Part shown: piece by piece, positions 38,529-56,080 of the stretch | How positions within the stretch are numbered: the first letter of the stretch is position 1 | How the letters are laid out: every line of letters starts with the position of its first letter | IMG/VR virus record: IMGVR_UViG_3300031521_000080 | Location: 1 to 56,548 of that record | DNA length: 56,548 bases | Origin: a virus | Direction: 5' to 3' (one strand) | Made by a program: the position numbers and the translations under genes | The notes under the pieces: model-generated | Database searches by the model: none | Told to the model about the DNA's origin: nothing | What the model saw: the letters and a program-made list of their open reading frames with translations, nothing else

Positions 38529-39374
38529 CTACAGAAGATCGGCCTTGGACAGGTAGGCAGCGATGGCCTCAAGGTACTCGGGAGAGGCGTGGAAGGTCTC
38601 CGCCCACCCCACGGCTGTGTTGCATCTTGTGCAGACCAGCCCCCTGATGCACTGGGCGCACCCCGATACTCCTGAGCAGTGCTTGTGGTCGTGGTCAATC
38701 GCAGGTGATCTGGTTTCGGAAAACGGAGTCAGGCACACGGCGCAGGAGTAACTCTGTGCTTCCAACAGGGCTGTGTAGGTCTCCCTCGACAGGCCATGGC
38801 GATTGGTTCTCTGCTGAAGGTTCATCCGCCGACGTTCTTCAGGAGTCAGCGCAGCATGACGTTCAGCCCGAGCCTTCTTCCGGCACTCCTCACACAGCAG
38901 GCTCTCCACCGTGGACTCACTGGGGTACTGGAAGACCGGCTTCTCTTCCCCACAGCGGGAGCAGGTACGAGATGCCTTCCGGTCCACCTTGATCCGGCCC
39001 TTCAGGGGAGCTGTCCGAGCCTTCACCTCTTCAGGAGTCTGCTTTCTCGAAACACCTCGACCCTCGATCCCGTGCTCGAACAGGGCGGTCCTCACCTGCT
39101 TCTCGGTGACTCCCAGCCCCACGGCGATGTGGGCTGCTGACATCGTGGGGGCCAGCCTTCTCAGGTGCTCCAGCCGCTCAGCAGTCCAGATCGACACGGG
39201 ACGACCAGTGTTGCCTGTCCGGGCGTCCTTGGCCTTCAGACCCAGCTGATTGAGCTTCCAGCGGACCATCTTCACCGGGCGATCCAGTTCGGTCGCCAGA
39301 TCCTTCAGAAATGACTCAGAGGCCGACTTCCGAAGAAGTTCGACCTCTGAGTCCAACCATGCACGTCTCTCCAT
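38529..39374 (-). CDS. HNH (endonuclease VII-like) homing endonuclease
   Basis: 281 residues. The N-terminal region has helix-turn-helix-like segments (SESFLKDLATELDRPVKMVRWKLNQLGL and MSAAHIAVGLGVTEKQVRTALFEHGI) for DNA reading. Then CSRCGEEK and CEECRKK, and the nuclease core CAVC...AIDHDHKHC and CIRGLVCTRCNTAVGW. It is closely similar in core to the gene at 5604. It interrupts the capsid to fibre order and has its own candidate leaderless promoter. Confidence 0.88.
   Translation of the reverse strand: MERRAWLDSEVELLRKSASESFLKDLATELDRPVKMVRWKLNQLGLKAKDARTGNTGRPVSIWTAERLEHLRRLAPTMSAAHIAVGLGVTEKQVRTALFEHGIEGRGVSRKQTPEEVKARTAPLKGRIKVDRKASRTCSRCGEEKPVFQYPSESTVESLLCEECRKKARAERHAALTPEERRRMNLQQRTNRHGLSRETYTALLEAQSYSCAVCLTPFSETRSPAIDHDHKHCSGVSGCAQCIRGLVCTRCNTAVGWAETFHASPEYLEAIAAYLSKADLL
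38535..38544 (-). promoter_or_regulatory. GGCCGATCTT element, site 3 (fibre cassette)
   Basis: Exact 10-mer 25 nt before the ATG at 38509, lying at the end of the HNH coding sequence. GAGGCCATCGCTGCCT is 10 nt upstream, matching site 4 in 15 of 16 bases. Confidence 0.5.
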
Positions 39375-39412: not shown

Positions 39413-40471
39413 TCAGCCCGGCGTAACATCGCTGACATAAACGAACTGTTCCGGCCTCGTGATGACCGGCAGGAGGTTCCACTCCAGCAGGTACTGACGG
39501 GCCGACGGGTCCTTGTCCTTCCACGTCTTGGCGAACTTGCCGGTGTAGCCGTCCGGGGCCTCGTCGTCGGCGGTGGGGCCGATGAAGAGTTCGATGGGGC
39601 GGTTCTCGGTGAAGTTGCCGATCAGCAGGGCGTCGTCAGCGAAGAAGCGCTGTTCGGCAGCCGGGATGGTCGGGTTGGCGGTGTAAGCAGCGCCGACGCC
39701 GTCGTACACAGCCTCCTGCGGCTTCCAGTTCAGGCCCATGAAGCCCGGGAGGATGCCGTTCTGGTAGTACTGGTCCTTCATCCGGTCGGAGAGCAGGATG
39801 CCACCGGCAGTGCCGGGGGAAGCCGCGCCCGTGTTGGCGAAGGCGTTGAAGATGTACGTCATGGTCTTCTCCGTGGCGTACGCATCGACAGCCGGGACCC
39901 GACCGTCGCGGGTGATCAGCCGCTTGAGGGCGCGGATGTCCTCGACGATTGCTCCCGGGGTGGCAGTGGCCCACGAGCCCGCAACCGACGCCTTGTGCGA
40001 CGGGAGGAACTTGTAGTCCACGGTCGCCTGAACGTCCGGGTAGTCGAGGGTCAGGGTGCCCGTGCAGGCCTGCCAGATCAGGTACTCGGCGAAGTTGTCG
40101 AAGCGCTGGTTGAGGTCCTTGACCTCACGCAGCACCGACTCCTCAGCGCGGGTGTTCGCCAGCTCGGAGACCGAGTTGGCCGACTGGCGCAGCCAGTGGA
40201 GCGTGGTGGGCTCGAAGACCTTCTTCTCGCGAAGGTAGACGAAGGCCGCGCTCTGGCTGGAGCGACCGAGGCGCGGCACGATGTGTGCTTCGCTGTTCGG
40301 GACGTTCGGGCGAGCGATGGCGCGGGAGCCACGGATGACTTCCCACTGCACCGTCGGGAACGGGTGGGGGGTCTGCGGGACGCGGCTGAGCATCTCCAGA
40401 GACTCAGGAGCGGTGAAGCGCTCGACGACACCACGGAGCACCGTGGGCTGGAGCAGAGAGATCTCGGGCAC
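39413..40471 (-). CDS. Major capsid protein (lambda E-like)
   Basis: 352 residues from GTG 40471 (VPEISLLQPTVLRG), with AAAGGA 8 nt upstream; upstream codons are unlikely to be translated. The sequence has lambda gpE-family features: an N-terminal LSRVPQTPHPFPTVQWEVIRGSRAIARPNVP arm, a spine helix LREVKDLNQRFDNFAEYLIWQACTGTL, and a C-terminal ELFIGPTADDEAPDGYTGKFAKTWKDKDPSARQYLLEWNLLPVI. It lies directly after a gpD-like decoration gene, as in lambda. Confidence 0.92.
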   Translation of the reverse strand: MPEISLLQPTVLRGVVERFTAPESLEMLSRVPQTPHPFPTVQWEVIRGSRAIARPNVPNSEAHIVPRLGRSSQSAAFVYLREKKVFEPTTLHWLRQSANSVSELANTRAEESVLREVKDLNQRFDNFAEYLIWQACTGTLTLDYPDVQATVDYKFLPSHKASVAGSWATATPGAIVEDIRALKRLITRDGRVPAVDAYATEKTMTYIFNAFANTGAASPGTAGGILLSDRMKDQYYQNGILPGFMGLNWKPQEAVYDGVGAAYTANPTIPAAEQRFFADDALLIGNFTENRPIELFIGPTADDEAPDGYTGKFAKTWKDKDPSARQYLLEWNLLPVITRPEQFVYVSDVTPG

Positions 40472-40667
40472 TGAAGTTGTCCTTTCGTCGCGCCAGAGTG
40501 GTTTCTGGGAAGTCAGCGACACCGGCTTAGGTGCCCGATCTGCGGCCCGGATTGGTTACCGGTCACTTGCCTGATCTGGATTGAGTTGGCCTTCCGAGCT
40601 ACTCAGGATCAGGAAGGGCCGGGGGCCCTTCCATCACCTCAGAATCCCGACCGGGAGAGGTCCTTGC
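40472..40667 (-). promoter_or_regulatory. Intergenic region upstream of the major capsid gene
   Basis: 196 nt without a gene. It holds the strong hairpin at 40612-40632, a palindrome copy at 40501-40512 (8 of 10) and the capsid ribosome site. A promoter for high-level capsid expression would be expected between the hairpin and the gene, but no clear -35/-10 is seen. Confidence 0.4.
40612..40632 (-). terminator. Hairpin between decoration and capsid genes
   Basis: A perfect 9-bp stem (GGAAGGGCC with GGCCCTTCC) and 3-nt loop, without a clear U-tract. It fits an actinobacterial-type terminator or an mRNA-stabilising element. Confidence 0.55.
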
Positions 40668-41102: not shown

Positions 41103-41627
41103 CTACGAGCGGACGTACGCGGCGGTCTGCTTGTCGGCGACCGCGCTGAGGCGAGCGATCTCGTCCTCCACGGTCTTGTCGTGCGCGTCGTCGGTGGTCT
41201 CGACGCCACCCTCTGCGGAGAGCTTGACGAGCGGCTTCTCCGGGAGGACCTTGTCGAACAGCTCGGCGTTGGAGAGCTTCAGCTCGACCATGGCCTCACG
41301 GTTCTTCGGGAGGATGTGGCCGGAGAGGACCAGTGCCTCGACTGCGGCTTCGGCGGCGCTCTTGGCGGAAGCCTCGACCAGCGTGTCGACCTTGGCGGTC
41401 AGCGCGACGATCTTGTTCCCGGCTTCTGCGACGGCACCGATGAGGACCTCAGCAGAGACCGTCTCGTCGGTGTTGCTCAGGGTCAGGAGGCCGGTACCGA
41501 CCAGCTCTTCCTGAATCTTGTTGCTCAGTGCGACAGACGCATCTGCCAGCGCGGCCTTCTCCTGAAGGGCGGTCACGTCGATGCCGTGGTCGGCCTTGAG
41601 AGCGGCGAGCGTCTCTTCCAGAGTCAT
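41103..41627 (-). CDS. Nested scaffold protein (internal start)
   Basis: 174 residues from an in-frame ATG at 41627 (MTLEETLAALKADHGIDVTA), preceded by GAGGAG with 6-nt spacing, an unusually good site inside a gene. This matches the lambda C/Nu3 arrangement, where the scaffold is the C-terminal part of the protease gene made from its own start. A GGCCGATCTT copy is 48 nt upstream. Confidence 0.65.
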   Translation of the reverse strand: MTLEETLAALKADHGIDVTALQEKAALADASVALSNKIQEELVGTGLLTLSNTDETVSAEVLIGAVAEAGNKIVALTAKVDTLVEASAKSAAEAAVEALVLSGHILPKNREAMVELKLSNAELFDKVLPEKPLVKLSAEGGVETTDDAHDKTVEDEIARLSAVADKQTAAYVRS

Positions 41628-42194
41628 GAAGTTCTCCTCGTTGTCTGCCGGAGTAAGCACCAGCACCTGCTTATCAAGATCGGCCCCACCGCGCGAGGCA
41701 GCGATGACCTCCTCGAAACCCTTGAGATTGGTCACATAGGGCCGGTTGGTGATGGCGGTGTGCAGGAGGGTCGGACCCACCCGTTCGCCGCTCGTGGTGT
41801 CCATGTAGTCGAGGTGGAGCATGGCGGAAGCCCCCAGCAGGGTCTTGCCCACCTTGTCCGCATCGTCGGTACGGACGTCGATGTCGACGTAGACGCCATC
41901 GTCGGCCTTGTAGAGCCTGATGACTTCACCGATGTTCCGGTCGGGATCCTCGGTGTGCTCGTTGTCGCCGTTCACCTTGGGGACCTGAACGATGTCGGCC
42001 ACGCCTGCGGCGAAGTTGGCGATGAGGGTGTCGGCGAACTTCTGGTCGACCTGCACCGAGCCGCCCTTGACGCCGGGGTACTTCAGCTGTCCGAAGTGCA
42101 GGATCTGCTTTCGGAAAACACGCCCTGAGGCGGTGTGGGACAGCTCGACGAAGCGGTCACCCCTCGGCCCCGGTACGACTACGAACTGATCCAT
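41103..42194 (-). CDS. Capsid maturation protease with scaffold domain (Mu I-like)
   Basis: 363 residues. The first about 180 match Mu I-type/head proteases: VRRT-free N-terminus MDQFVVVPGPRGDRFVELSHTASG, VNGDNEHTEDPDRNIGEVIRLY, LLGASAMLHLDYMDTTSGERVGPTLLHTAITNRPYV. The C-terminal part is a helical, Ala/Glu-rich scaffold. An internal start at 41627 probably makes the scaffold alone. The ATG at 42194 has no good ribosome site; GATCTT stands 7 nt before it. Confidence 0.83.
   Translation of the reverse strand: MDQFVVVPGPRGDRFVELSHTASGRVFRKQILHFGQLKYPGVKGGSVQVDQKFADTLIANFAAGVADIVQVPKVNGDNEHTEDPDRNIGEVIRLYKADDGVYVDIDVRTDDADKVGKTLLGASAMLHLDYMDTTSGERVGPTLLHTAITNRPYVTNLKGFEEVIAASRGGADLDKQVLVLTPADNEENFMTLEETLAALKADHGIDVTALQEKAALADASVALSNKIQEELVGTGLLTLSNTDETVSAEVLIGAVAEAGNKIVALTAKVDTLVEASAKSAAEAAVEALVLSGHILPKNREAMVELKLSNAELFDKVLPEKPLVKLSAEGGVETTDDAHDKTVEDEIARLSAVADKQTAAYVRS
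41676..41685 (-). promoter_or_regulatory. GGCCGATCTT element, site 4 (scaffold start)
   Basis: Exact 10-mer inside the protease coding sequence, 48 nt before the internal scaffold ATG. GAGGTCATCGCTGCCT is 10 nt upstream, as at site 3. Confidence 0.5.
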
Positions 42195-43063: not shown

Positions 43064-46000
43064 TCACTTCGTTGATACGCCGACCGAAGCGTATTTCGCC
43101 ATCAGGGCCTCGTACTCCGCCTTCAGCTTCTCCGCTGCAATCATCGCCGGAGACTCCTTCGGCAGCTTCTGAGCCTTGTAGAGGGCCATGGCAGCCTCGT
43201 AGTCGGCCTTCATCTCGTTGGCCTTCTTCATCCCGTTCATGGCCGCAGCCTGCGGGCTGTTGGGCTCGACGATGTTGTGGCTGTCCGGGTCTCCCTCGAA
43301 GTAGTTCATGTAGGGGTAGACCTCCGGGGGAATCAGAGACGCCATCACCTTGTAGGAACCGTTGTAAGGCACGACGTCCCAGATATACATGGCCAGACCG
43401 GGCTCCATGATCATGCCGTTTTCCCCGGTGTTGTTGTGGTTCCCACTACCTGCCCCTGTGTAGACACCCTTCATCTCCGGAGGCACCACGAGGTCGACGT
43501 AGACGTTGTAAAACTTGACGACCTGACCTCCGTGGTCCATCGAGCCGGGAACGATCTCCATGGCCCCGTGATCCTTCTGGATGGATCCGATCATGGACCT
43601 GAGATCGTCACCTTCCTTGAACCGGCTGCCATCGTTCCGCACGAACCGGTCGAAGGAGACCGTCCGGGAAGCCCGGAAGGCCTCGCCCACAGGACCAGCC
43701 TCATCTGCGGCCTGCTTGCAGCCTTCCCAGACATCCATCTTGGCTGAGTAGGGGTCGGTCTTGGCCTGCTCAGCGATGTCTGCCTTCTTGAAGCCCAGCT
43801 TGGCGGGCATCTTCCGGAGGTAGGTCTGCCAGTTGGAAGCGTTCTTCTGGGTGTCCAGTCCCTTCTGGGCCTTCGGGGACAACGTCTTGAGGATGCCTCC
43901 CCACTTCGCCTTGCAGTACTTGTCGGACTCATCTGCCGACATCGCCAGCACGCTGGGATCGTCGTGGTGCAGTGGGGTGTAGAAGGCGTGTCCATTGGCC
44001 TGTAGCCACTCGGTGTGCTTGGCCTCGTACTCGGCCTTCTGCACCTCGTAGGCGTGGATGGTCTCGGAGTAACTGGCCTTCAGCTTGTCGATGGAGGCCT
44101 GAATCTCCTCGTAGAGCGCAGGCTCGTCGCCGAAGTAGCCCTTGGTCTTGATGTGGTCCAGCTGGGCCTGATCCCCGTGCATGGCCTGATTGATCGGGTT
44201 CCACGCAGTGGAGGAGTCCTTCAATGCCTTGGGGTCGAGAACGGGAGAGTGCTTCGCCCGGTAGGCGGCATAGGCCTTCTCCGCCCGCTCCATGAAGTCA
44301 GGCGACAGATCGAGTGGGGTTGGGCCTGCACTGTCACCGACGCTCACAGGGGCCTTGGGAGCCACGGGAGCGGGCTTGCCATACATCGGGCTGTCCGGGT
44401 TGCCCTCGCTCATGGAGACGCCCTTGGGGAGGCCTGTGGAGGAGTCCCAGACCACCTTGGGTGCGGCCTTGCCAAGGCTCTTGGAGTCCAGCGTCGAGTA
44501 GACCAGCTTGCCGTCCGAGCCCCAGAGCTGGTTGCCCTTGTCGTCCAGACGGACGATCTTGACCTTGCCGGTCACCTTGTTTATCGAAACGACCTTGGCC
44601 TTGTTGGAGAGTCCACCCTTGTTGAACTTCACGACCGTGACGTCGTCGCCGACGGCGAGCACGGAGCCCTTGTGGTCCTTGACCCCATCGATGTTGGCGT
44701 CGATGACCGTGGCTGGGTTGCTCGGGTCGACCGGCTTCCAGCTGTGCGTGTTCCCCAGCACCGTCTGCTCGGTGATGTGGTCGGGCTGGTCGTAGTTGTA
44801 GCCGGACGGGTAGGCCCAGCTCATGGTTCCGTCGGGGTGCTTGACCGCGTAGATCTTGCCGGTCATGTCCACCGCGATGACCTTGGAGCCCTCCGGGGGC
44901 GCAAGGTAGTTGTCAGGCAGCAAGCTCTTCTTCGGGGCCGACATCGGCAGGTCGTAGCCGTCGTACAGCGACCAGCTCTTCTCGTACTTGGCCGTGTTCG
45001 CGAGGTTCTTGGCCTCCACGTCGCCGTCCCCGGGCAGCTCATAGGTGCTGCCGTCGGCGTAGAAGTAGGAGACCTTGCCGTCGGCCCCCATCACTGCATG
45101 AACATCTCCGGAGGCTCCGGAGTACATGGCGATGTACTTCGATCCCGGTGCGGGCTGGGTGTAACCAGCGGGCAGCTTATCGGGGGCCTTGATCACATCG
45201 GCCTTGGGGCTGTCGAGGATCTCGTTGGGCTTCTCGAACATGACCCAGCCGTCGGTGGTCTTCTCGATCATCCGCTTGGTCGCACCAGCTTCTCCGGCGT
45301 CCATGACGGCTCCGGAGGGGTTGTAGTACCAGATCTTGCCCTTCCACTCCACGGCGTAGGCGGGGCTGGGGGAGACCGTCTTGGCCACGATGGTGGCGTT
45401 GGCCGGGAGCTTCTTGAAGCCATCCGGCAGCTCGGTCATGGGCGGCAGCTTCTTGGAGACGCCGGGCTCGGGCTTGTCGTAGGGATCCCAGTTGTCGGAC
45501 TTCTCCTCGAAGACGGAGGGGTAGGCCAGCGCAGCCTGCACCTTGCCGTCGGGGAAGTAGTAGTGGGCGGTGTTGTCGGCGTGGCGGACCACGAAGTTGC
45601 CGTTGCTGGTGTGCTTGGCGAGGATCCGAGCGCCTTCGGGCATCGGGGCGTAGCCGTCGGGCATGGTGGCCGGTGCCGGGTTGCCTGCGGCTGCCGGAGC
45701 GTCCGGGGTGCCAGTGGGGACCGGGTGGTAGCTGCTGTCAGGGGCGGCGAACCAGTCCTTCATGACTGCATTCATGGAGTCGCCGTTGGGGTGCGTGAGA
45801 CCGTTGGGGTTGAACTCGCTGACGTGGACCACGTCGCCGTTGGCCTTGAGCACCGAGACAGTGGTCTCGTCCTCGTTGTAGTACATCTGGTCCCCCGCCT
45901 CGGGGACGTAGGTGGACACGAACGGCAGAGCGGGCAGGTCGGGAGCCTTGGGGGCGTCCTCCACCGGAGTGAAGCTGCTCTTCGGATCCGCGATCCACTC

Positions 46001-49000
46001 CTTGATGCTCTTGGCCGTCTCACTCTGTGCGCCGTACATGTCGCCGTTGGGCTGGTTTGCAGAAACCTGCACCACCTGCCCCTTGGCCTCGACGATGGTG
46101 ATGGACGACTGGTCAGAGTTGTAGTAGAGCTTGTCCCCCGCAGCCAGCTGGTACGTCGGGGTGAAGCTGAGCCCCTCGGGGTAGCTGGGGATCGGCTCCG
46201 GCGCGGCAGCAGGAGCCTCGTCGAAGGAGTCCCACATCGCCTTGTGGTCCTTGATGAAGGCCGTGTCAATGCCCCCAGCATGAAAGACCGTCCCCGACTC
46301 GGAGCCATTGTTCGGCCCGTAGTGGTAGTCGACGCTGTCCCCATTGGTCACCGCGTAGATGTCCGCGCCCTTGTACTTGGCGAGAATCTTCTCTCCAGCA
46401 GGAACCGGCTTGTAACCATCCGGCAGTGCAGTGGGGACCCTGTTGCTGCCCAGCGGCTCGGGAGCCTTCACGACGTGGGTCTTGTCCGCGAAGCCGTGGG
46501 TGCCGTCGGCGTAGTCCAGCTCCACCAGTCCACTGGAGGGGTCAGCGCTGAGCACGACAGCGTCCTTGAACTTCTCGGTCTCGGGGTTGGAGACGCTGAC
46601 CTTCTCCCCCACCGTGTAGACCTTGTCGTTGCTGGAGAAGGCGTAGGTCTCACCAGCGGGGATCGTGAACGGAGCATCCTGCACCGACAGCTCGTCGTTG
46701 AGGTAGGCCCCGTAGACGCCGGGGGAGGTCTCGCCGTAGGAGATCTCGTTGTTGGAGCCGGTGATGGTGAACTTCTCGCCGGTCTGCTTGAGCTGGGCGA
46801 CCTCGCCCTTCTTGAAGGCTCCCTGTCCCTTGCTGTGGGCCTGAATGGTGGCCACCGCGTTCACGGCGGCGTTGGGGGTCTCGTCCTTGATCCCGAACCG
46901 GTCGAGGATCTTGGCGCGGCGCTCCACCAGCGTGTCGTACAACTCAGCCTTCTCGGCGTCGCTGAACCCGGAGGAGTGGACGATGGTGTGGATCTGGTCC
47001 GGGGTGATGTTCAGCAGCTTCTTGGCGGACTCACCCACAGCCTCGTCATCCATCGACCCGAAGACCTGAGGCAGCTTGGAGTAGCCGGGGGACTTGGTCG
47101 ATCCGTTGCGCATGTCGTCGATGTCGGTGGGGTCTCCACTCCACCAGTCCTTCTTGCCACCCGTGGCGCGGTACCCCATCGCACCCCCCGGGTCGATGCG
47201 GAGGGGCTTGCCATCCTTGTCAGCAACGAGATTCCACGGGCCCATCCCGGCCACGTCGTAGTTGCCCAGCCATGCGTCGATGGCGAAGTCTTCCTGCACC
47301 TTGGCGAGGAACGCCTTGCCGGTGGGGCCCTGTCCGACCATTGCCTTGGGCAGTGCCTTGCCGTCGTTCTCGATCCACGGACTCACGAGATAACGGTCGC
47401 TCTTGTTCCCATCCTTGCCCAAGGCGACCTCGTTGGCATTGACCTCGAAGTGGTGATAGAAGGCGGAAGCCACAACCTCGTTGTGCATGTGCCCGGGAGT
47501 GCCCTTCTTGACATAGAACTTCTTGCCGCTCTCGTCGAGGTAGACGCCTCCGGGGTTCGACCCTCCGATGTCTCCGGCGATCTTCGTCCAGCCAGAGATG
47601 TCGTACTTGGGTTCCGCAAGGTTGTCGGGGCCCATCTTGCTGTAGGCAGCGGTGGGGACGGTCATGTCGCCGGTCTCGAACCCGGCCAGCTTGGCGAGGT
47701 TGCCGTGAGACAGCGCGGCGTGCAGGGCCCCTGTGGACTCCAGTGCAGTCAGCTCCTCAGCGGAGAACCACTGGTACTCCTTCAGCTCCCAGTCCTCAGT
47801 GAAGGAGGGGGCTGTGATGTCCTGCACCTGACCGAGGTCGGTGACGATGGTGGAGTAGGTCCAGTCCTTGTCGGTGCCGGAGATCTTGCCGATCACGGCC
47901 TTGTTTTCACTAACGAGCTTGAGGTTGCTCAGGATGCCTTCGCCACCGTGGATCTCCTCGGAGAACTCGCGCATCGCACCCTGAAGGCCGGTCTCGTTCT
48001 GGTCGATGGCACCACCGGGGAGGTACCACTCATCCCGGTCGCCACGCTTGCCCACGAGGACCTTCTTGACGCCATTGTCCATGGCCGTGACCACGACACC
48101 ACCAGCGCCGTACTTGCCCCACGAAGGCTTCGGCTCACTGCCGTCGACCGGGTGGATCATGACGTGCCCATCACCGGGGAGGCCACGCTGTTCCTCAGGC
48201 AGGATGGACTTGGACAGGTCGACGGACCCGGGGGTGTCGTTGACCTTGGTCGTGACCTCCACGGTGTTGGACCAGTCCATCAGGTCCTTCTCCCACTGCG
48301 GGATCTCGGCATCAGGCACGTTGGCCTTGGCCGCGAGGTACTCCTCCGCACCGGCCTGCGCTGCCCCAGCGGAGGGGTAGTGGTTGTCGTGGTTGTCGTG
48401 CTCGACGTGGTAGCCGTTCAGGAACGGGGAGAAGCTGTAGCCGTCTGCACCACCGTTGTTGATGATCCAGATCGAGTGCTCGCTGCCGTTGATCTCGGTC
48501 GCGCTCTTGGACACGACGTAGCTGGGCAGGTGCTCGGAAGGCTTCGGCTGCACCCACGTCACGGGGTAGGCCTGCACGGAAGGACCGTCGAGGACCGCAG
48601 CCACGTTCTCATCGAGAGCTGTGTTGGTCACGTCAGCATCGAGGGTGACCAGATCGTTCGGGCCGAAGGCGAACCCTGCGCCTGCTCCGTCGTCGTACTT
48701 GAAGTGCGGCTTCCCGCCCGGCTCGTTGTTGTAGGAGTTGAAGTGGATCGTGCCGTGGTAGCTGACCGGACCCTTGGACTCCATCCGGGTCATCGTCCCG
48801 GCCTTGCCATGGAAGGACTTGGGGTAGTTGGCCAAGTCCTTCGCCGTGAGGGATGCCGGGAGCTTGGAGTCGCTGACCTCTGCCAGTGCCTGCTTGGCCT
48901 CGTCGGCGTAGGCGCTCTTGTTTCCAGAATCGGTGTCGCTGTTGACCTTGGGCCGGGTCAGCGTGGAGAAGTTGGTGTACTTGACCCCGATGCCGTTGCC

Positions 49001-52000
49001 GTTCTCGTCGTAGGCGTCGTACCAGACCTCGTTCTCGGGGATGCCGTAGTAGCCGGGCTCCCGGCCTTCCATCTGCTCGATCAGCATCTGCTTGAGCATG
49101 GCCTTGTTGCGGCGCTTGTCGTGCTGGCGAGCAGCGAACCCGAAGTTGGACTTGTGCTTCTCGTCATGCGAGCGGCCCACCTTGTAGTAGGCGGCGATGC
49201 CGAGAGCGACGTTCATGTCCTGAAGGGCGCTGCCGCGCATGGCCATGACCCGCTTCAGGATCTTGTCAGCCTTGTTCTGGTCGTCCTCGGTCATCACGTC
49301 CATGCTGTCGAGCACCGCGAGGGCGGTCTTGATGTCCGCGACGGTGACCTCCAGCGACTCCGGGCCCATCTTGTCGGCCTCGGATGAGGGCAAGCCGTTC
49401 TTGTTGGCGAACCTGCCGACGGTGACCTTGGTCTTGAAGTCCTTCAGTTCGAGGTCATCGGGGATCAGCGCGGAGCCCGGATCGGTGAACTGGAGCCCCA
49501 GCTTCTCCGCTGCGAAGCGGATCATGGCGGGCTTGTGGCGCGCAGGCATCCCGGGCTTGCTGTACTCCTTGATGGCCATCTTGGACATCTGCTTGCGCAG
49601 GGAGGCGGACTTGAAGGGGCTGTTGGAGGGGAGCAGGTCGGTGTTGTAGTACGAGCCCTGCATGGCGCGGGAGTAGATCTGGGCGTCGATGAAGGTACGC
49701 AGATCCTTTTCGGAAACGAGAGGTCCACCATCCCACAGCGGGATGTCGGCGACGGTGCTCCAGTCGCCGCTGTCCATCAGCTCCTTGTCGGAAGCATCCG
49801 GCAGCTGGGTGATGTCTCCGAAGTGCACACGACCGTCGTAGATGGCTTGGAAGATGGACGCGTTGTTCTCGCCCAGAGCGTTGTAGCCCGCACCCTTCTT
49901 GCCCACGAGGAACATGAAGCCTGCGGAGTCCTTGTTGTCGTCGGTGCGGGTCAGCACCACGGCGGTCGGCTGGCCACCGTTCTTGGACGACGGGATCGTC
50001 ATCGTGATCTGATCCCCGGCCTTCATCGCCTTCAGGTGCTTGTAGTCGGCGATCTTGTCGCCGACCGTGTAGTCCTCGACCTTGGTGATGGCGGGTACGT
50101 CGGGCTCATTGAGGACGACGTCGTCCTTCGGGACCTCCAGCACGGAGATCTGCCCGCTGGCGACGGAGGACTTCAGGGTCCAGTAGTCGAAGGAGTGGGC
50201 GCTGCCATCCTTCTTGAGCTTCCCGTCGGGGTACACCACATAGACCGACTCGGCAGTGCCATCGGGCTTGGGCTTCTTGAACTTGTAGCGGAGCTTGGTG
50301 CCGACCTTCTGTGCGAGCAGGTCACCGAGACGCTTGATGGCCTCCCCGGGCTTCCAGTTCTTCTTGGGCTCATCGCCCGCCAGCTCCTGATTGGGGACGT
50401 GCCACCACGTGGTTCCGGGAGTTTCCACCGATGCCAGAATGCTGGCATCGTCCATCTTCCAGACCAGTCCGTCGTTCTCCAGCGTCCATGTGCCGTCAGA
50501 GTTCTTGGTCCCGGTCATGGCGCTGTCCTTGAACGCGAGAGAGTCTCCCACCTGCACCAGCTTGAGGTCCTCAGCAGAGGAGATCTGCCGGGTGGCCCCG
50601 AGAGGGTGGTCCGGGGTGGGTGTCGGGCTGACCACGGCGGAGTCGTCATCCTTGACGTCTGCGGGGTCGAAGTAGTCCGGAGCCACAGGGCCCATGGCGG
50701 TGGTCCACTTGCCTTCCCGGTCCTTCACACCGATCAGGCCGTTGCTGGACTGGACGGAGGCACCCTCGGGCGCGCTGGCAGTCCACGTCTCCGTGGCGAC
50801 GTCGCCGGGGACCGGGTCAGGCTTGGGGTTCTTGTTCTTGCTGTTGCCCTTGAACGGGTGGATCTGGAAGCCGAACTCCATGGTCTCCGCGAACTCGGTG
50901 AGAGGGGCAGGCATGGGATCCCCGCCCTCGGAGATCGAGTGCGCGTAGCCGTCCTTGCCGACGTTCCACAGGGAGTTGTGCTCCGGGTCGTCTGGGTGGC
51001 TCAGCAGGAACTTGTCTCCGGGCTTGGCCTCCAAGATCTGGGACCGGCTCACGGCCTGCTGCGGGAAATCGGGCAGCCCCGGCGCGATGCCGTGGGTGTC
51101 CATGTCGCCCTTGGTCCAGTAGTCCTTCATGTTCGGGTCGGTGTTCACTCCAGACTCACCGACCACCGGCTCGACCGGAGCGGGAGCTGCCTCCTTGGGG
51201 GCGCGCTTCTTGCCACCCTTGGCAGCCTTCAGCTCGGAGAGGCGCTTCTCCCCTTCCGGGCTGATGTAGCCGAACTCGGCCTGTCCTGCTTCGAGGTCGG
51301 CGATGGTCGCGGAGATCTCGTCGGGAGTCATCTCTGCCGGGGGCAGGTTGGTGGTGTCCCGCTTGGAGACGTGGTCCTCAGGGGCAGGCTCGGGCATGTT
51401 CGCAGCGACGTGAGCGAGAGCCTCCTCGCGCGTCTTGAAGACGTTGTCATTTCCAGAAACGTCCTCGACGGAGTACTCGAAGCTGTCGGTCTGGCGGTTG
51501 CGGCGGGCCCAGACCTTCTGGCCACCGATCTCGGTGGAGGCGAGGCCCAGAGCGTTCTTGCGGGCCTCCTTCTCCAGCCCAGCGAGCTGCTTGTCGTGCT
51601 CCGGGTTCGTCTCGGGGGCGTTGGGCTTCGGGGTCAGGGCATCCGCGACATCGGGGTTGGCGTCGAGGTACTTCTCCCACGAGTCGACCATGGCCTGATG
51701 GTCCGGGTTGTTCGAGTCCAGCGGGCCGTCGTTGAGGGTGTTCAGCACTGAAGCGGCCTGCGTGGTCGCCAGCTCCTTGTTGGTGGACTTCTTGGGCTCG
51801 GCAGGCTTCTTGGGCTCGGCAGGCTTCTTGGGCTCGGCAGGCTTCTTGGGCTCGGCAGGCTTCGCGGCTGTCTTCTCACCGTCGATGCCGTTGGCCGCGA
51901 TGTCGGTGGAGACCGCCTTGTCCGTGGCGTTCTTCTTGCGCGCGGAAGCGCCGTCGACCTTCGGCGCAGGGGTGCTGGCGTAGTCCGTGCCCTTGGGGTT

Positions 52001-53026
52001 GCCGAAGTAGTCGGGGGCGGGGGGCGTGCCCTCGTCGGGAGCAGGCTTCTTGCCGGGGGTCGGGTTCGGCTTCGGAGTCTTCAGGTCCTCCAGCTGCGCC
52101 TGAAGCGCGGCCATCTGGTCCTCGATCTCCTTGATCTTCTTCTGCTGGGCGTGGGTGTCGGGGTCGTTGACCTCGGTCCAGCGGTCCTTGATGTCGGAGT
52201 TCTGCTTGTGGAGCTGGTCCTCCAGCGCCTTCAGGGTGGTCTCGTCCATCCCGGTGGCCTTCAGGCCGCTGACCACCTTGGCGATGTACTTGTCGTCGAG
52301 GTAGTCAGGAACGTCCTTGTAGGACGGGAACTGGGCGTAGTCAGTGGTATCCGCCGTGTCGGGCGCGTTGGGGTCTGGAGACCCTGCTGAGGGCTTCCCA
52401 GCATCCCCTGCGGGAGCACCGAGTTCCTCAGAGCTGAACTCGGAGTCGTTCGGGCCGATGTCGTCGAGTCGGGCGTTCAGGACGTGCTCGGACTCACCGG
52501 AGATGTCGCTGGCGGTGCCGTTGGAGGTGATCAGCACCAGATCGTAGTTGGGGTCCCGGACCACTGCGAAGCCATCCGGGTTCTTCTTGGGCCGGAAGAC
52601 CTTGGAACCGGAGGGGAAGTTGAACGTGGCTCCGCCGACGCTGACCTTCTGGTCTCCCTTGGGGGTGACCATCTTCGGACTGTCGGACTCGGGCAGGGTG
52701 AGGGCCTTGGTGAGGGCCTCGATGGACGGCTTGGAGGCGGCGGAGCTGGGAGCGTTCGTCGAGGAACCGTTCCCGGTGGCGCTGTCCTCGGGGGCGACCA
52801 TGCCCGGGTGCCTGATCGCAGCGCGCTTGACCGCATCCAGTGTGATCGGTGCACCGATGGGCAGGCCGTACTTGCGGGAGCCTTCAGGGGTGCGGACGTA
52901 CCGAGTCTTGCTTCCCCGAGCTGCGAGGGTGACCTTTCGGGCCAGCTCCAAGATCAGCGGGTCGCCAGTTGTGCCGGTCAATGTGGTTGTCCTCAGCAGA
53001 GAGATTCTGAAAGCACTGGAAGTCAC
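43064..53026 (-). CDS. Giant multi-enzyme virion protein (Nudix, kinase-like, ART-like)
   Basis: 3320 residues from GTG 53026 (overlaps upstream stop as GTGA; a TTG at codon 17 with GAGGA is an alternative). The N-terminal tag is RYVRTPEGSRKYGLPIGAPI (about 42-61). A Pro/Lys linker follows with AEPKKP repeats (about 390-413). A Nudix box GAIDQNE...REFSEE spans 1672-1691. A kinase-like domain (Lys1840; DAWLGNYD, Asp1924, Asn1932, RIDPGG Asp1945) has the D-N-D layout of HipA/PI3K-like folds. Five LPxGY repeats span 2200-2750. An ADP-ribosyltransferase-like C-terminus has Arg3121, GAGSGNHNN and GENGMIMEPG. It lies downstream of portal and MuF, so it is probably packed in the head and ejected with DNA. 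Confidence 0.8.
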   Translation of the reverse strand: MTSSAFRISLLRTTTLTGTTGDPLILELARKVTLAARGSKTRYVRTPEGSRKYGLPIGAPITLDAVKRAAIRHPGMVAPEDSATGNGSSTNAPSSAASKPSIEALTKALTLPESDSPKMVTPKGDQKVSVGGATFNFPSGSKVFRPKKNPDGFAVVRDPNYDLVLITSNGTASDISGESEHVLNARLDDIGPNDSEFSSEELGAPAGDAGKPSAGSPDPNAPDTADTTDYAQFPSYKDVPDYLDDKYIAKVVSGLKATGMDETTLKALEDQLHKQNSDIKDRWTEVNDPDTHAQQKKIKEIEDQMAALQAQLEDLKTPKPNPTPGKKPAPDEGTPPAPDYFGNPKGTDYASTPAPKVDGASARKKNATDKAVSTDIAANGIDGEKTAAKPAEPKKPAEPKKPAEPKKPAEPKKSTNKELATTQAASVLNTLNDGPLDSNNPDHQAMVDSWEKYLDANPDVADALTPKPNAPETNPEHDKQLAGLEKEARKNALGLASTEIGGQKVWARRNRQTDSFEYSVEDVSGNDNVFKTREEALAHVAANMPEPAPEDHVSKRDTTNLPPAEMTPDEISATIADLEAGQAEFGYISPEGEKRLSELKAAKGGKKRAPKEAAPAPVEPVVGESGVNTDPNMKDYWTKGDMDTHGIAPGLPDFPQQAVSRSQILEAKPGDKFLLSHPDDPEHNSLWNVGKDGYAHSISEGGDPMPAPLTEFAETMEFGFQIHPFKGNSKNKNPKPDPVPGDVATETWTASAPEGASVQSSNGLIGVKDREGKWTTAMGPVAPDYFDPADVKDDDSAVVSPTPTPDHPLGATRQISSAEDLKLVQVGDSLAFKDSAMTGTKNSDGTWTLENDGLVWKMDDASILASVETPGTTWWHVPNQELAGDEPKKNWKPGEAIKRLGDLLAQKVGTKLRYKFKKPKPDGTAESVYVVYPDGKLKKDGSAHSFDYWTLKSSVASGQISVLEVPKDDVVLNEPDVPAITKVEDYTVGDKIADYKHLKAMKAGDQITMTIPSSKNGGQPTAVVLTRTDDNKDSAGFMFLVGKKGAGYNALGENNASIFQAIYDGRVHFGDITQLPDASDKELMDSGDWSTVADIPLWDGGPLVSEKDLRTFIDAQIYSRAMQGSYYNTDLLPSNSPFKSASLRKQMSKMAIKEYSKPGMPARHKPAMIRFAAEKLGLQFTDPGSALIPDDLELKDFKTKVTVGRFANKNGLPSSEADKMGPESLEVTVADIKTALAVLDSMDVMTEDDQNKADKILKRVMAMRGSALQDMNVALGIAAYYKVGRSHDEKHKSNFGFAARQHDKRRNKAMLKQMLIEQMEGREPGYYGIPENEVWYDAYDENGNGIGVKYTNFSTLTRPKVNSDTDSGNKSAYADEAKQALAEVSDSKLPASLTAKDLANYPKSFHGKAGTMTRMESKGPVSYHGTIHFNSYNNEPGGKPHFKYDDGAGAGFAFGPNDLVTLDADVTNTALDENVAAVLDGPSVQAYPVTWVQPKPSEHLPSYVVSKSATEINGSEHSIWIINNGGADGYSFSPFLNGYHVEHDNHDNHYPSAGAAQAGAEEYLAAKANVPDAEIPQWEKDLMDWSNTVEVTTKVNDTPGSVDLSKSILPEEQRGLPGDGHVMIHPVDGSEPKPSWGKYGAGGVVVTAMDNGVKKVLVGKRGDRDEWYLPGGAIDQNETGLQGAMREFSEEIHGGEGILSNLKLVSENKAVIGKISGTDKDWTYSTIVTDLGQVQDITAPSFTEDWELKEYQWFSAEELTALESTGALHAALSHGNLAKLAGFETGDMTVPTAAYSKMGPDNLAEPKYDISGWTKIAGDIGGSNPGGVYLDESGKKFYVKKGTPGHMHNEVVASAFYHHFEVNANEVALGKDGNKSDRYLVSPWIENDGKALPKAMVGQGPTGKAFLAKVQEDFAIDAWLGNYDVAGMGPWNLVADKDGKPLRIDPGGAMGYRATGGKKDWWSGDPTDIDDMRNGSTKSPGYSKLPQVFGSMDDEAVGESAKKLLNITPDQIHTIVHSSGFSDAEKAELYDTLVERRAKILDRFGIKDETPNAAVNAVATIQAHSKGQGAFKKGEVAQLKQTGEKFTITGSNNEISYGETSPGVYGAYLNDELSVQDAPFTIPAGETYAFSSNDKVYTVGEKVSVSNPETEKFKDAVVLSADPSSGLVELDYADGTHGFADKTHVVKAPEPLGSNRVPTALPDGYKPVPAGEKILAKYKGADIYAVTNGDSVDYHYGPNNGSESGTVFHAGGIDTAFIKDHKAMWDSFDEAPAAAPEPIPSYPEGLSFTPTYQLAAGDKLYYNSDQSSITIVEAKGQVVQVSANQPNGDMYGAQSETAKSIKEWIADPKSSFTPVEDAPKAPDLPALPFVSTYVPEAGDQMYYNEDETTVSVLKANGDVVHVSEFNPNGLTHPNGDSMNAVMKDWFAAPDSSYHPVPTGTPDAPAAAGNPAPATMPDGYAPMPEGARILAKHTSNGNFVVRHADNTAHYYFPDGKVQAALAYPSVFEEKSDNWDPYDKPEPGVSKKLPPMTELPDGFKKLPANATIVAKTVSPSPAYAVEWKGKIWYYNPSGAVMDAGEAGATKRMIEKTTDGWVMFEKPNEILDSPKADVIKAPDKLPAGYTQPAPGSKYIAMYSGASGDVHAVMGADGKVSYFYADGSTYELPGDGDVEAKNLANTAKYEKSWSLYDGYDLPMSAPKKSLLPDNYLAPPEGSKVIAVDMTGKIYAVKHPDGTMSWAYPSGYNYDQPDHITEQTVLGNTHSWKPVDPSNPATVIDANIDGVKDHKGSVLAVGDDVTVVKFNKGGLSNKAKVVSINKVTGKVKIVRLDDKGNQLWGSDGKLVYSTLDSKSLGKAAPKVVWDSSTGLPKGVSMSEGNPDSPMYGKPAPVAPKAPVSVGDSAGPTPLDLSPDFMERAEKAYAAYRAKHSPVLDPKALKDSSTAWNPINQAMHGDQAQLDHIKTKGYFGDEPALYEEIQASIDKLKASYSETIHAYEVQKAEYEAKHTEWLQANGHAFYTPLHHDDPSVLAMSADESDKYCKAKWGGILKTLSPKAQKGLDTQKNASNWQTYLRKMPAKLGFKKADIAEQAKTDPYSAKMDVWEGCKQAADEAGPVGEAFRASRTVSFDRFVRNDGSRFKEGDDLRSMIGSIQKDHGAMEIVPGSMDHGGQVVKFYNVYVDLVVPPEMKGVYTGAGSGNHNNTGENGMIMEPGLAMYIWDVVPYNGSYKVMASLIPPEVYPYMNYFEGDPDSHNIVEPNSPQAAAMNGMKKANEMKADYEAAMALYKAQKLPKESPAMIAAEKLKAEYEALMAKYASVGVSTK
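43071..43081 (-). repeat. GGCGTATCAAC core repeat, copy 3
   Basis: The 11-nt core of the repeats at 5591 and 11191. Here it encodes part of the final GVSTK of the giant protein and lies 27 nt before the next start. Confidence 0.4.
44780..46426 (-). repeat. Five LPxGY-type protein repeats
   Basis: Within the giant protein, units begin LPDGYKPVPAGEKILAK, MPDGYAPMPEGARILAK, LPDGFKKLPANATIVAK, LPAGYTQPAPGSKYIAM and LPDNYLAPPEGSKVIAV. Each continues with a strand of the type YAV...DG...YYP-G. Two other longer repeats (YxxxAGDxxYYNxDxxxxxV) lie among them at about residues 2285-2420. Confidence 0.75.
51788..51859 (-). repeat. Four perfect 18-bp tandem repeats (AEPKKP)
   Basis: The 18-nt unit occurs four times in a row and encodes repeated Ala-Glu-Pro-Lys-Lys-Pro, a rigid extended linker in the N-terminal part of the giant protein. 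Confidence 0.9.
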
Positions 53027-53253
53027 TCCGTGTGAGAACCCGAAATCAGCTCCACACGCCTTAGAAGATCGGCCACGTCACCTTGGAGGGTGAGGCCCAT
53101 CTTCAGAATCCTGTTCGGGGAGAGCCCTGTGAAGCTGTAGACACACTCGGTGACCCGGGCATCTTCGAGCACCAGAAGGAGTCCTTCAGCGGCTCCGAGG
53201 TAGGTGTCGAAGGTGACCCGGACGGTCTCATGGGCCTGTGGAAGCTCACTCAT
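53023..53253 (-). CDS. 76-residue hypothetical protein
   Basis: ATG 53253 is chosen because GAGGAG lies 5 nt upstream. The product is beta-rich (ETVRVTFDTYLGAAEGLLLVLEDARVTECVYSF) with a C-terminal helix DVADLLRRVELI. It overlaps the MuF-like gene and the giant gene. Function unknown; it may assist the giant protein. Confidence 0.65.
   Translation of the reverse strand: MSELPQAHETVRVTFDTYLGAAEGLLLVLEDARVTECVYSFTGLSPNRILKMGLTLQGDVADLLRRVELISGSHTE
53065..53074 (-). promoter_or_regulatory. GGCCGATCTT element, site 6 (giant gene)
   Basis: Exact 10-mer 38 nt before the giant gene start, inside the end of the 76-residue gene. GGGCCTC lies 17 nt upstream, a weaker match to the second block seen at sites 1, 3 and 4. 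Confidence 0.42.
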
Positions 53254-54055
53254 CTGCACTCCTCAGCGTCCTGACCAGCTTCCGGAGCCAGTGGACGATC
53301 TTGACGAAGAAGCCGGGGCTCATCTTCTGGACCTCATCGGTGGACAACGTCTCCCGCTCAGAGGTGGTGCTGTCCTCGGTGGTCGAGTCGTTGTAGTTCT
53401 CCAGCCCCTCGATCAGGATCACCAGCCAGCACATGCACCGGGGGTGGCGCGGGGGGCCCTTCAGGTCCCCGTAGACCTTCAGCCGATTGTCGGAGGGGAA
53501 CTCCTCCCCGAGACCCACTTCCGTGCCCTCCAGTGCCCCACACAGCTCGCAGGGGACATGGTTGACGAAGTTGGCTCGCCACACCTTGCGCACGACGAAG
53601 CCGTAGGTGTCCACCAGCTCCCGGGCTCCTCGCAGGAGAGCATCGGTGTGACCTCTGCTGGCTGCCACTCCAGCGCTGTGGGCGATTCTGGAAACGAAGC
53701 GTGCTCGGGCGGCGTCGTCGTGGGGTCCGGCCTTGTACTCACGAAGGTTCTTGCGGACGTCCTCCAGTAGACCGTCGAGGTACGCCGAGCGCAGCACCTC
53801 GACCCTCATCCCGGTGGGCTTCCATCGGGGGACCCCGGCCTGTGCAGACAGGTGGGCAAGACCGACAGCTGCGGCGGAGCGGTAGGCGTCACGGATGATG
53901 GCCTCCATCGCCCAGCGCACGGACTGGTCGCTGTGCCTGCCGTCTACCCAATCCGCAAAGGCCTCTGCGATCCGCATCCGGACAGACACCTCCAGAGCCC
54001 TGATGGCTTGGTTGGTCTTCCGGGAAGCCTCGAACTGCTCCCCGAAGCTGGCCAT
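53246..54055 (-). CDS. MuF-like minor head protein
   Basis: 269 residues. The N-terminal three quarters are helical. The C-terminal signature C-ELC-GALEGTEVGLGEEF...GPPRHPRCMCWLVIL is the MuF motif, in which cysteines and His bind metal. It follows portal and the 116-residue gene. MuF/SPP1 gp7 proteins sit at the portal vertex inside the head and help DNA ejection. A basic helix ends the protein. Confidence 0.87.
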   Translation of the reverse strand: MASFGEQFEASRKTNQAIRALEVSVRMRIAEAFADWVDGRHSDQSVRWAMEAIIRDAYRSAAAVGLAHLSAQAGVPRWKPTGMRVEVLRSAYLDGLLEDVRKNLREYKAGPHDDAARARFVSRIAHSAGVAASRGHTDALLRGARELVDTYGFVVRKVWRANFVNHVPCELCGALEGTEVGLGEEFPSDNRLKVYGDLKGPPRHPRCMCWLVILIEGLENYNDSTTEDSTTSERETLSTDEVQKMSPGFFVKIVHWLRKLVRTLRSADE

Positions 54056-54405
54056 CAGGACTTCAGGCTCTGCTTGTCTATCGCCATGTCCGACCGTCCC
54101 CGGGACCCGACCAGCGCGCTGAGGACGTCGGTCAGCTGGCCGTTGGTGGCTGCGTAGTCCTTCACCGCGATGGTGAACTCTTCCTGCACGGAGCGCATCT
54201 GAGAGAGGTTGCCAGTCTTCTTGGCCACTGCGAACTGGCGCTGGAGGCTGGTCAGCCGGGTGAGGGAGGTAGCCCGCTTGGCAGCCTTCATGTTGGGGTC
54301 GTAGCGGTTGCCGATCTCGCCTCCGACCGGGAGGCCGAAGAACCGGGCCCCCTCGGTGGTGCGTACCCGGCGAACTCCCACTGCCGGGGTGGGTGCGTCA
54401 GCCAT
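54055..54405 (-). CDS. Small head-associated protein with shared N-terminal motif
   Basis: 116 residues. Residues about 12-34 read RRVRTTEGARFFGLPVGGEI, matching the giant protein's RYVRTPEGSRKYGLPIGAPI at most positions. The rest is helical (AAKRATSLTRLTSLQRQFAVAKK, MRSVQEEFTIAVKDYAA). It lies between portal and MuF, overlapping both by a few bases. Function unknown; a capsid-internal protein is likely. Confidence 0.72.
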   Translation of the reverse strand: MADAPTPAVGVRRVRTTEGARFFGLPVGGEIGNRYDPNMKAAKRATSLTRLTSLQRQFAVAKKTGNLSQMRSVQEEFTIAVKDYAATNGQLTDVLSALVGSRGRSDMAIDKQSLKS

Positions 54406-56080
54406 CGCTGTAGTCCTCTCCTGCGATCCCTACCATCTGGAGCGCCCAGTCGAACATGTCATCGGTGATGCCAGACAGCTTCACCGTCTTCTTCGCCTTG
54501 AGGGCTGGGTCAGCGGGGGGCGGTGTGGAGGATCCTGCGCCAGCGGCCTTGTCTGCCTTCTTGGCCATGATTCCCAAAACGTCGGTCAGGTCCTGTGCGC
54601 CACCCAGCTCGGCATTGGTGACATCTCCGGGTGCTCCGGCGATTCCTGCCAGTGCAGGATCGGGTGCGGCTCCCGGCAGGGGCTGACCATCGGGGCCGAC
54701 TCCACCGCCAGCGAACTGGGCTGCTGCTACGGCCTTCTCCTCTGCCTCCCGGGCCTCGACCAGCTCCCAGTCGATCTCCAGCCCCATCTCCTTGGCCTGC
54801 GTCTTCTCCAGCTCGCGCATGAACTCCTCGGAGACGTTCATGGACTGCCCGGAGGTGGCGAGCTTGTCGAAGGTGGCTGCGATGGCCGAGCGCTGCTCGT
54901 CGGTGAAGGTGCCCCACGTGAAGGTCGGGTACTTGCCACCGTCGAAGTTGTAATCGATCAGCTGGGGGATGATGTAGTGGTTGATCTGGTTGGCGACGTC
55001 GTCCATGATCGCCCGCAGCATCAAGACGAACATGTCGTCACCGGGGGTGGCGAAGTTCACCAATGAGCCGGACTCACCGGAGCCACCGCCCGTGTCGGCG
55101 TCGAAGAAGGCCGCTAGGATCGACTCGCTCATCATGTGGTTGTGGTGGTTGATGAGGTTCAGGAAGTCGAAGGTCCCGCCCTCCTTCAGCACCTCAACCT
55201 TGAAGCCCTCGGGCATCATCATCCACTGGGCCAGCGCGAGGCTGCTCAGGTTCCGCGCGAACTCGGTCTTGGCGTTCTGGGAGGCATTCGGGGGGACGGT
55301 GCCGATCCGGGTGCCTACAGCTGCCCGCTGGGCTGCGAGGTGGGCAGTGAAGTAGGCCTTGGCCTTGGCGTCGTAGTGCGGGAACGCGGACTCGAAGAAG
55401 GAGACGCCGTAGAACTTGCGCTCGTCCTCCTGCGCGGAGTAGTAGAACGCGTACTCCGGCTCGATGAAGACGTCGGTGACCTTGCCACCGACGACAGCAC
55501 GCTGGCGGAGCCCGGCGAACCCACCGGTCTTGTCAGCCACGAAGGTCATCGTGTCGGAGGGACGGTAGGCCAGCTTCTTCAGGGTGTACTTGCCCTTGAG
55601 CGGACCCTTGGTGGGAACCCAGAACACTTTCTCGAAACAGGAGAAGCCCTCGAACAGGGCTCCCAGCATCTGGCCCATGAAGCGCTGGAAGGTGGTGGTC
55701 ATGCCCCCGTTGGCCGGAGCCGTCCGGAAGACGGCCTCCATGAACTCTCCTTCGGCCTCTCCGCCGTCTGCGGGCTTGAAGGTGGCCGACACCAGCGAGG
55801 CGCGGATCGGCAGCGTCAGGAGGCGGTACAGGGCTCGGGCGTGGCCGTCCAGACGGCGCATGGTGACGAGCTGGCGGGTGGTGGGGCGCGTGACGTTGTA
55901 CTCGTCCTTGAGCACCTCGTTGAGGTCCTCAGAGGGGGTCTTCTTCAGGCCCATGGCGACGGGGTTGAACGGGGTGGTGTACGCCAAGGAGGAGTCCACA
56001 CCCTGCTCGTAGCCCAACTCCGGGATCTCGGAGTACAGCTCGGACGGCTTCTTCTTGTCCTCTACAGCGGTACTAGACAC
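54398..56080 (-). CDS. Portal protein (Mu gp29/DUF935-like)
   Basis: 560 residues. The pattern fits portal proteins: RQLVTMRRLDGHARALYRLLTLPIRAS (early helix), FQRFMGQMLGALFEGFSCFEKVFW, RPSDTMTFVADKTGG, and a helical stem NHHNHMMSESILAAFFDADTGGGSGESGSLVNF. The tail is low complexity and Ala/Gly/Pro rich. It lies directly after the terminase and before MuF. The GTG at 56080 overlaps the terminase end by 8 nt. It forms the dodecameric DNA gate. Confidence 0.9.
   Translation of the reverse strand: MSSTAVEDKKKPSELYSEIPELGYEQGVDSSLAYTTPFNPVAMGLKKTPSEDLNEVLKDEYNVTRPTTRQLVTMRRLDGHARALYRLLTLPIRASLVSATFKPADGGEAEGEFMEAVFRTAPANGGMTTTFQRFMGQMLGALFEGFSCFEKVFWVPTKGPLKGKYTLKKLAYRPSDTMTFVADKTGGFAGLRQRAVVGGKVTDVFIEPEYAFYYSAQEDERKFYGVSFFESAFPHYDAKAKAYFTAHLAAQRAAVGTRIGTVPPNASQNAKTEFARNLSSLALAQWMMMPEGFKVEVLKEGGTFDFLNLINHHNHMMSESILAAFFDADTGGGSGESGSLVNFATPGDDMFVLMLRAIMDDVANQINHYIIPQLIDYNFDGGKYPTFTWGTFTDEQRSAIAATFDKLATSGQSMNVSEEFMRELEKTQAKEMGLEIDWELVEAREAEEKAVAAAQFAGGGVGPDGQPLPGAAPDPALAGIAGAPGDVTNAELGGAQDLTDVLGIMAKKADKAAGAGSSTPPPADPALKAKKTVKLSGITDDMFDWALQMVGIAGEDYSDG

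Follow-up and report, generated by a model that had tools for sequence, protein, structure and literature searches.

How internal effectors are selected, freed and ejected is open for most phages outside T4 and the phiKZ group. In T4, internal proteins are packed via N-terminal capsid targeting sequences, which the protease gp21 removes, and the scaffold contains many gp21 sites (PMC9026906). In SPN3US, a prohead protease trims long N-terminal propeptides (PMC5694885). Here we describe a motif of about 20 residues in a phage record of 56,548 nucleotides (IMG/VR virus record IMGVR_UViG_3300031521_000080, positions 1 to 56,548; this whole stretch is called the window), where two head-region proteins of 116 and 3320 amino acids (aa) carry it near their N-termini. 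We propose, at a probability of roughly 55%, that it is a reusable head-cargo tag (RxVRTxEGAxxYGxPIGxxI) found on polyvalent-type effectors next to a site of release by the protease.

An earlier note, made from the sequence of the window, had pointed out a motif common to these two proteins. Both copies are present on the minus strand, as are all genes in question, and each is recovered by the motif profile at an E value of about 1e-15:

54055..54405, minus strand: open reading frame (ORF) of 116 aa, motif followed by a helical tail; by homology a detached portal C-terminal tail
54313..54372, minus strand: motif copy 1, RRVRTTEGARFFGLPVGGEI, aa 12-31 of the 116-aa protein (profile E 1.2e-15)
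43064..53026, minus strand: giant polyvalent-type protein of 3320 aa, motif close to the N-terminus
52844..52903, minus strand: motif copy 2, RYVRTPEGSRKYGLPIGAPI, aa 42-61 of the 3320-aa protein (profile E 3.8e-16)

The common sequence is R-x-V-R-T-x-E-G-x4-G-x-P-[IV]-G-x2-I. When the two proteins were compared by BLASTP, the motif was the sole match (16/34 identical, E 1e-6). That their remaining parts are unrelated to each other, as the note had stated, is thus true for this pair, but outside the motif the small protein has homologues among the portal C-terminal tails of other phages. A profile built on 23 motif instances gave 88 matches at E<1e-3 among 10,275 ORFs of the fetched loci and none at this threshold in reversed or shuffled ORFs; no further ORF of the window matched below E 7. 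V, T, G, G, P and G are invariant across unrelated carriers and hosts. No Pfam match covers the motif and no solved structure resembles it, so that we rejected the idea of a piece of a known domain; nor was a wider domain common to the carriers found around it, and the open-access literature searched does not mention it. In an AlphaFold2 model of the 116-aa protein (predicted local distance difference test, pLDDT, 66) the motif forms, at low confidence, a strand-helix-strand unit and the C-terminal part is helical; a model of the portal plus tail (pLDDT 43) was not used.

With the motif masked, 89 carrier ORFs fell into 20 groups without detectable similarity to each other, in a set that includes some near-identical contigs and comes from loci fetched mainly via searches with the motif or motif proteins. 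Carriers (locus numbers begin with L) comprise portal C-terminal tails, MuF proteins, prohead-protease fusions, ADP-ribosyltransferases, 2H/Acb1-like phosphoesterases, zeta toxin, topoisomerase IB, zincin and helicase-methylase proteins. Pfam matches were to ADPrib_exo_Tox (L007, L031, L059, L061, L085), to 2'-5' RNA ligase, LigT or, weakly, Acb1 (L005, L033, L042, L047), to topoisomerase IB (L081), to zeta toxin with GNAT and DNA ligase (L054), to a PI3/PI4-kinase-like domain (L014, weakly L051) and to an SF2-type helicase with methylase (L019); structural domains were Peptidase_S78 (L003), Phage_portal (L031), Portal_Mu (L012, L015, L045, L073) and MuF (L019, L033). Fusion carriers have the domain order structural, motif, effector: portal-motif-ADP-ribosyltransferase in L031, MuF-motif-helicase in L019, MuF-motif-zeta in L054 and protease-motif-ADP-ribosyltransferase in L061. 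Most carriers are predicted injected effectors, and these phages probably pack many tagged enzymes into their heads and inject them.

Several carriers showed further peculiarities. Two proteins (L007 9974-13003 and L008 12800-15709) have two motif copies each, the first weak and close to the N-terminus, the second strong and at about aa 480, which looks like the joining of two tagged cargos. Five loci (L153, L160, L164, L166 and L167) encode proteins of 316-416 aa (ORF length) near the portal, with the motif at aa 200-310 preceded by a conserved ESFAPYLGGPV segment, a further anchor type. An ADP-ribosylglycohydrolase is annotated alongside the motif-bearing ADP-ribosyltransferase in ObLaDi (L010 20356-22977, 13062-14270) and Sixama (L004 14357-18214, 773-1777), where it might protect from or reverse the ADP-ribosyl modification. 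Sixama gp80 (L004 21163-21597) probably starts earlier than annotated, because its open frame continues upstream past the annotated start and contains the motif there.

By tblastn, the motif was found on differing proteins of Gordonia, Brevibacterium, Microbacterium and Microcystis phages and in the record of Chlorobiaceae phage CV-1-33, that is, in phages of actinobacteria, one cyanobacterium and one green sulfur bacterium. Whole-record searches of 16 phages gave 1-3 instances per genome. A degenerate DNA pattern retrieved 47 viral loci, with the true motif in 46; a comparable pattern with one additional fixed residue retrieved six loci from 84,980 bacterial and archaeal genomes. Two of the six (L059, L061) have ADP-ribosyltransferase domains, L063 has a zincin-like HELSH segment at its end, and L060 has a module in common with the giant protein of the window. 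A cellular family was rejected, as the matches without ADP-ribosyltransferase look phage-like and some lie on short contigs of metagenome-assembled genomes. Among nine annotated phage records, 18 of 19 motif instances lie between the portal and capsid genes (binomial probability ~7e-11 against the largest such segment), the lone exception being the ObLaDi ADP-ribosyltransferase gene at 70 kb. The earlier note had named two outcomes that would speak against its idea, a motif mainly on non-phage or non-head proteins and a motif within a larger common domain; we found neither, and the motif is nearly absent from cellular genomes.

The position of the small protein relative to the portal proved informative:

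54398..56080, minus strand: portal protein, Portal_Mu family, 560 aa, without the fused tail of its relatives (PF06074 E 3e-37; phrog_113)
54091..54264, minus strand: helical segment, aa 48-105 of the 116-aa protein, homologous to the fused portal tails of L045 and L073

Masking of the motif left a match between the C-terminal half of the 116-aa protein and the fused portal tail of L045 (BLAST, 41% over 51 aa, E 1e-8), and the Magritte homologue of the small protein matched the portal tails of both L045 and L073. In the alignment, fused and separate tails alike contain the motif and a helical segment RLxSLQxQ...GN..., with R50, L51, S53, L54 and Q57 invariant; the portals of the compared phages are 46-58% identical to one another. 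On this homology, the 116-aa protein is the separate-gene version of a portal C-terminal tail. The ATG of its gene overlaps the stop codon of the portal (ATGGCTGA), and the detached tail begins 11 residues ahead of the motif. A frameshifted portal-tail fusion was considered and rejected as needless, because an AGGAG-type ribosome site serves the overlapping ATG. A second sample, of 71 deduplicated loci picked by portal similarity and independent of the motif, had the motif inside the portal tail in 25 loci, in a small ORF immediately following the portal in 10 and only on another nearby protein in 18; many of the remaining 18 loci end shortly past the portal.

In most carriers a short site occurs just upstream of the motif, 2-20 residues ahead, and its type varies with the class of prohead protease. 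In group A (phrog_80-type protease), [LI]ExK stands 4-5 residues ahead of VRT in 6/6 cases, with a chance of ~1e-12 at a background of 0.00088 per residue. Similar ExK sequences open the conserved part of the capsid protein (MESKA in DalanDe, MEAKS in Cantare). Group B, with the phrog_328-type protease found in the window, has [LIVFM]xL[AS] in 15/20 carriers, at a density of 0.044 per residue upstream of the motif versus 0.0013 downstream. Six to nine such sites are present in the group B protease-scaffold protein, whereas proteins of similar size mostly have 0-4. In group C (phrog_18402-type protease), [LIM][VTS]A[AGS] occurs directly ahead of the motif in both GMA2 cargos and both Sixama carriers; it is the sole match in one GMA2 cargo and in both Sixama carriers, and the other GMA2 cargo has a single further match far downstream. 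The site is also found in the protease C-terminus and the capsid protein (LTAGA). Among the predicted sites of single carriers are LETK, LESK and IEEK (DalanDe, Cantare), IVAG or ITAA (GMA2) and LELA (Magritte gp17). The corresponding features of the window are:

52922..52951, minus strand: LELA (aa 26-29) and VTLA (aa 32-35), candidate prohead-protease sites directly ahead of motif copy 2, from pattern statistics
54473..54484, minus strand: VKLS close to the portal C-terminus, a candidate prohead-protease site
41103..42194, minus strand: head maturation protease with a scaffold-like C-terminal part, 363 aa, six [LIVFM]xL[AS] sites (phrog_328 E 1.6e-7)

When the loci were all searched with profiles for the three proteases, site class equalled protease class in 22 of 33 instances (p ~5e-6 with shuffled labels, instances of one phage not being independent of each other). 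The group B pattern was repeated on the portal-picked loci, where the site lay within 20 residues ahead of the motif in 15/30 new instances, at 0.040 per residue upstream versus 0.0011 downstream. The enriched patterns, tracking the protease class as they do, are predicted sites for the phages' own proteases, and after cutting there the motif would still lie close to the N-terminus of the mature protein.

We hypothesize that the tag stands at the beginning of those polypeptides which are incorporated into the phage head and destined for release within it, namely the portal-tail peptide and diverse effectors. A precursor would enter the prohead via its own N-terminal peptide plus the tag, or fused to portal, MuF or protease. 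The prohead protease would then cut just ahead of the tag, and the freed protein would keep the tag near its new N-terminus, stay in the head and exit with the DNA. In the window, where a gene of its own already encodes the tail, the start codon would replace the cut. If the sites are used, a protease-freed portal tail, an effector freed of its propeptide or structural partner, and the separate tail of the window would each have their N-terminus a few residues ahead of the motif, and it is these shared starts that suggest the motif as a mark of free internal head proteins. Loading is unlikely to be its only role, because it occurs on portal tails and in fusions. The earlier proposal of a loading tag holds insofar as the motif is portable, stands near the N-termini of otherwise unrelated proteins among head genes and is carried mostly by predicted effectors. 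It does not hold for the small protein as an independent cargo, as this is a version of the portal tail, or for the relatives in which fusion to portal, MuF or protease makes a cargo tag unnecessary. A broader reading is tentative, and we would sooner doubt it than adopt it: the motif may be a widespread and distinct signal of virion cargo, in the form of a conserved beta-helix-beta peptide that mature internal proteins retain at their N-terminus once the head protease has released them; it would be common to phages with unrelated portal and protease families and serve the portal's own tail as well as any acquired effectors.

A number of observations weigh against the proposed head-cargo tag. 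About one third of the motif instances have no recognisable site, and the site patterns were composed after inspecting some of the same carriers. ObLaDi gp133 and VanLee gp127 have degenerate motifs that lie at a distance from the head genes and lack a site. The motif is accompanied by several unrelated portal and protease families, which makes a single conserved docking partner hard to name. Co-evolution of the motif copies within a genome was considered and rejected: within-genome similarity is weak (p 0.009 overall) and is absent in the window's own group (p 0.35). Finally, cleavage, packaging, ejection and docking of the tag to a head component are steps that we infer from sequence rather than from proteomic or genetic support; virion proteomics of Gordonia phages was not found in the literature searched.

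The alternative that survives best, although we consider it rather unlikely, is that the motif has no loading role and is an ejection or core signal, the N-terminal leader of internal proteins that are free after maturation; it could, for example, place them by the portal or start their passage through the tail. This would fit a motif lying near the mature N-terminus after the predicted cut, its retention in portal tails, which enter the head without a cargo tag, and the start of the window's detached tail so shortly ahead of it. However, ejection of portal-tail peptides is unsupported, and stand-alone effectors would still need an entry route, and the motif is their sole common feature. We regard it as improbable that the motif is a docking site for the prohead protease or scaffold, positioning the substrate for the adjacent cut. 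Its place immediately downstream of sites that track the protease class is what such docking would produce, but the motif stays constant while the protease families change (phrog_328, 80, 18402), and it is kept in small tail proteins that have no site.

The resemblance to T4 raises the question of whether the motif is itself a capsid targeting sequence, a loading tag that the protease removes. As in T4, where IPI-III and Alt are processed by gp21, a short N-terminal element stands on unrelated proteins, an ADP-ribosyltransferase among them, beside a prohead-protease site, and many sites are carried by the scaffold protein there and by the protease-scaffold protein here (PMC9026906). The analogy, also drawn in the earlier note, is inexact: the motif is indeed N-terminal on unrelated cargo (about 20 groups, many within the first 60 aa), but whereas the T4 element is a propeptide that is cut off, the predicted sites here lie ahead of the motif, which would remain. 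Moreover, portal tails carry the motif too, as do fusion proteins at internal positions, and the protease sites are unlike those of T4. A removed targeting sequence is therefore very improbable, and the T4 equivalent would rather be the short peptide ahead of the motif. Equally remote is a neutral recombination linker or remnant of a larger common domain, spread by the shuffling known among polyvalent proteins (PMC5512222) and hinted at by carriers with domains in common (family 0), given the six invariant positions across unrelated carriers and hosts, the retention on portal tails and the wider common domain that was looked for around the motif and not found.

Other systems share parts of this arrangement. 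In the SPN3US/phiKZ group, the prohead protease likewise trims N-terminal propeptides of inner-head and portal proteins, and two paralogs have an identical N-terminus; there, however, the propeptides are long, that of the portal is removed, and a 20-residue motif kept after the cut is not described in the available part of the report (PMC5694885). Polyvalent proteins and MuF-fused effectors are similar multidomain effectors with ADP-ribosyltransferase, 2H, zeta, MuF, portal, zincin and helicase-methylase parts, but the accessible portions of the two sources do not describe such a motif or release site (PMC5512222; PMC5576092). Measured against the polyvalent type, the giant protein of the window is encoded between MuF and protease and has a NUDIX domain (aa 1644-1761, its single confident Pfam domain) plus one module common to other carriers. 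Encapsulin cargo-loading peptides are short and dock cargo inside an HK97-fold shell. They differ in being C-terminal, unrelated in sequence and not associated with proteolysis. A searchable motif combined with class-specific release sites would allow injected effectors to be predicted from sequence, including those encoded far from the head module, would explain how effectors are released from portal, MuF and protease fusions, and would provide a tag with which selected proteins could be loaded into the heads of other phages.

In the order of minus-strand transcription, the head region of the window encodes the portal, the 116-aa protein, the MuF-type protein, a 78-aa ORF, the 3320-aa protein, the protease with its scaffold-like part and the capsid protein. 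Its remaining genes are:

53246..54055, minus strand: MuF-type head morphogenesis protein, 269 aa (phrog_2662, phrog_3517)
53023..53259, minus strand: ORF of 78 aa, between the MuF and giant genes, with zero family matches among Pfam and phrog profiles
39413..40522, minus strand: major capsid protein (phrog_29 E 3.6e-26)

Immediately past the capsid gene (window 38529-39374) lies an Endonuclease VII-like ORF with a D5-like N-terminal part. Within the giant protein, the module at aa ~1830-2063 is also present in a Pseudonocardia thermophila contig (L060) and in another giant (L051). By eye it is possibly kinase-like; the PI3/PI4-kinase matches of L014 and, weakly, L051 lie elsewhere. At aa ~2200-2800, inspection of the translation by eye suggested repeats of the type LPDGYxxxPxGxxIxAxxxGxxYAVxxxDGxxxYYxxxG.

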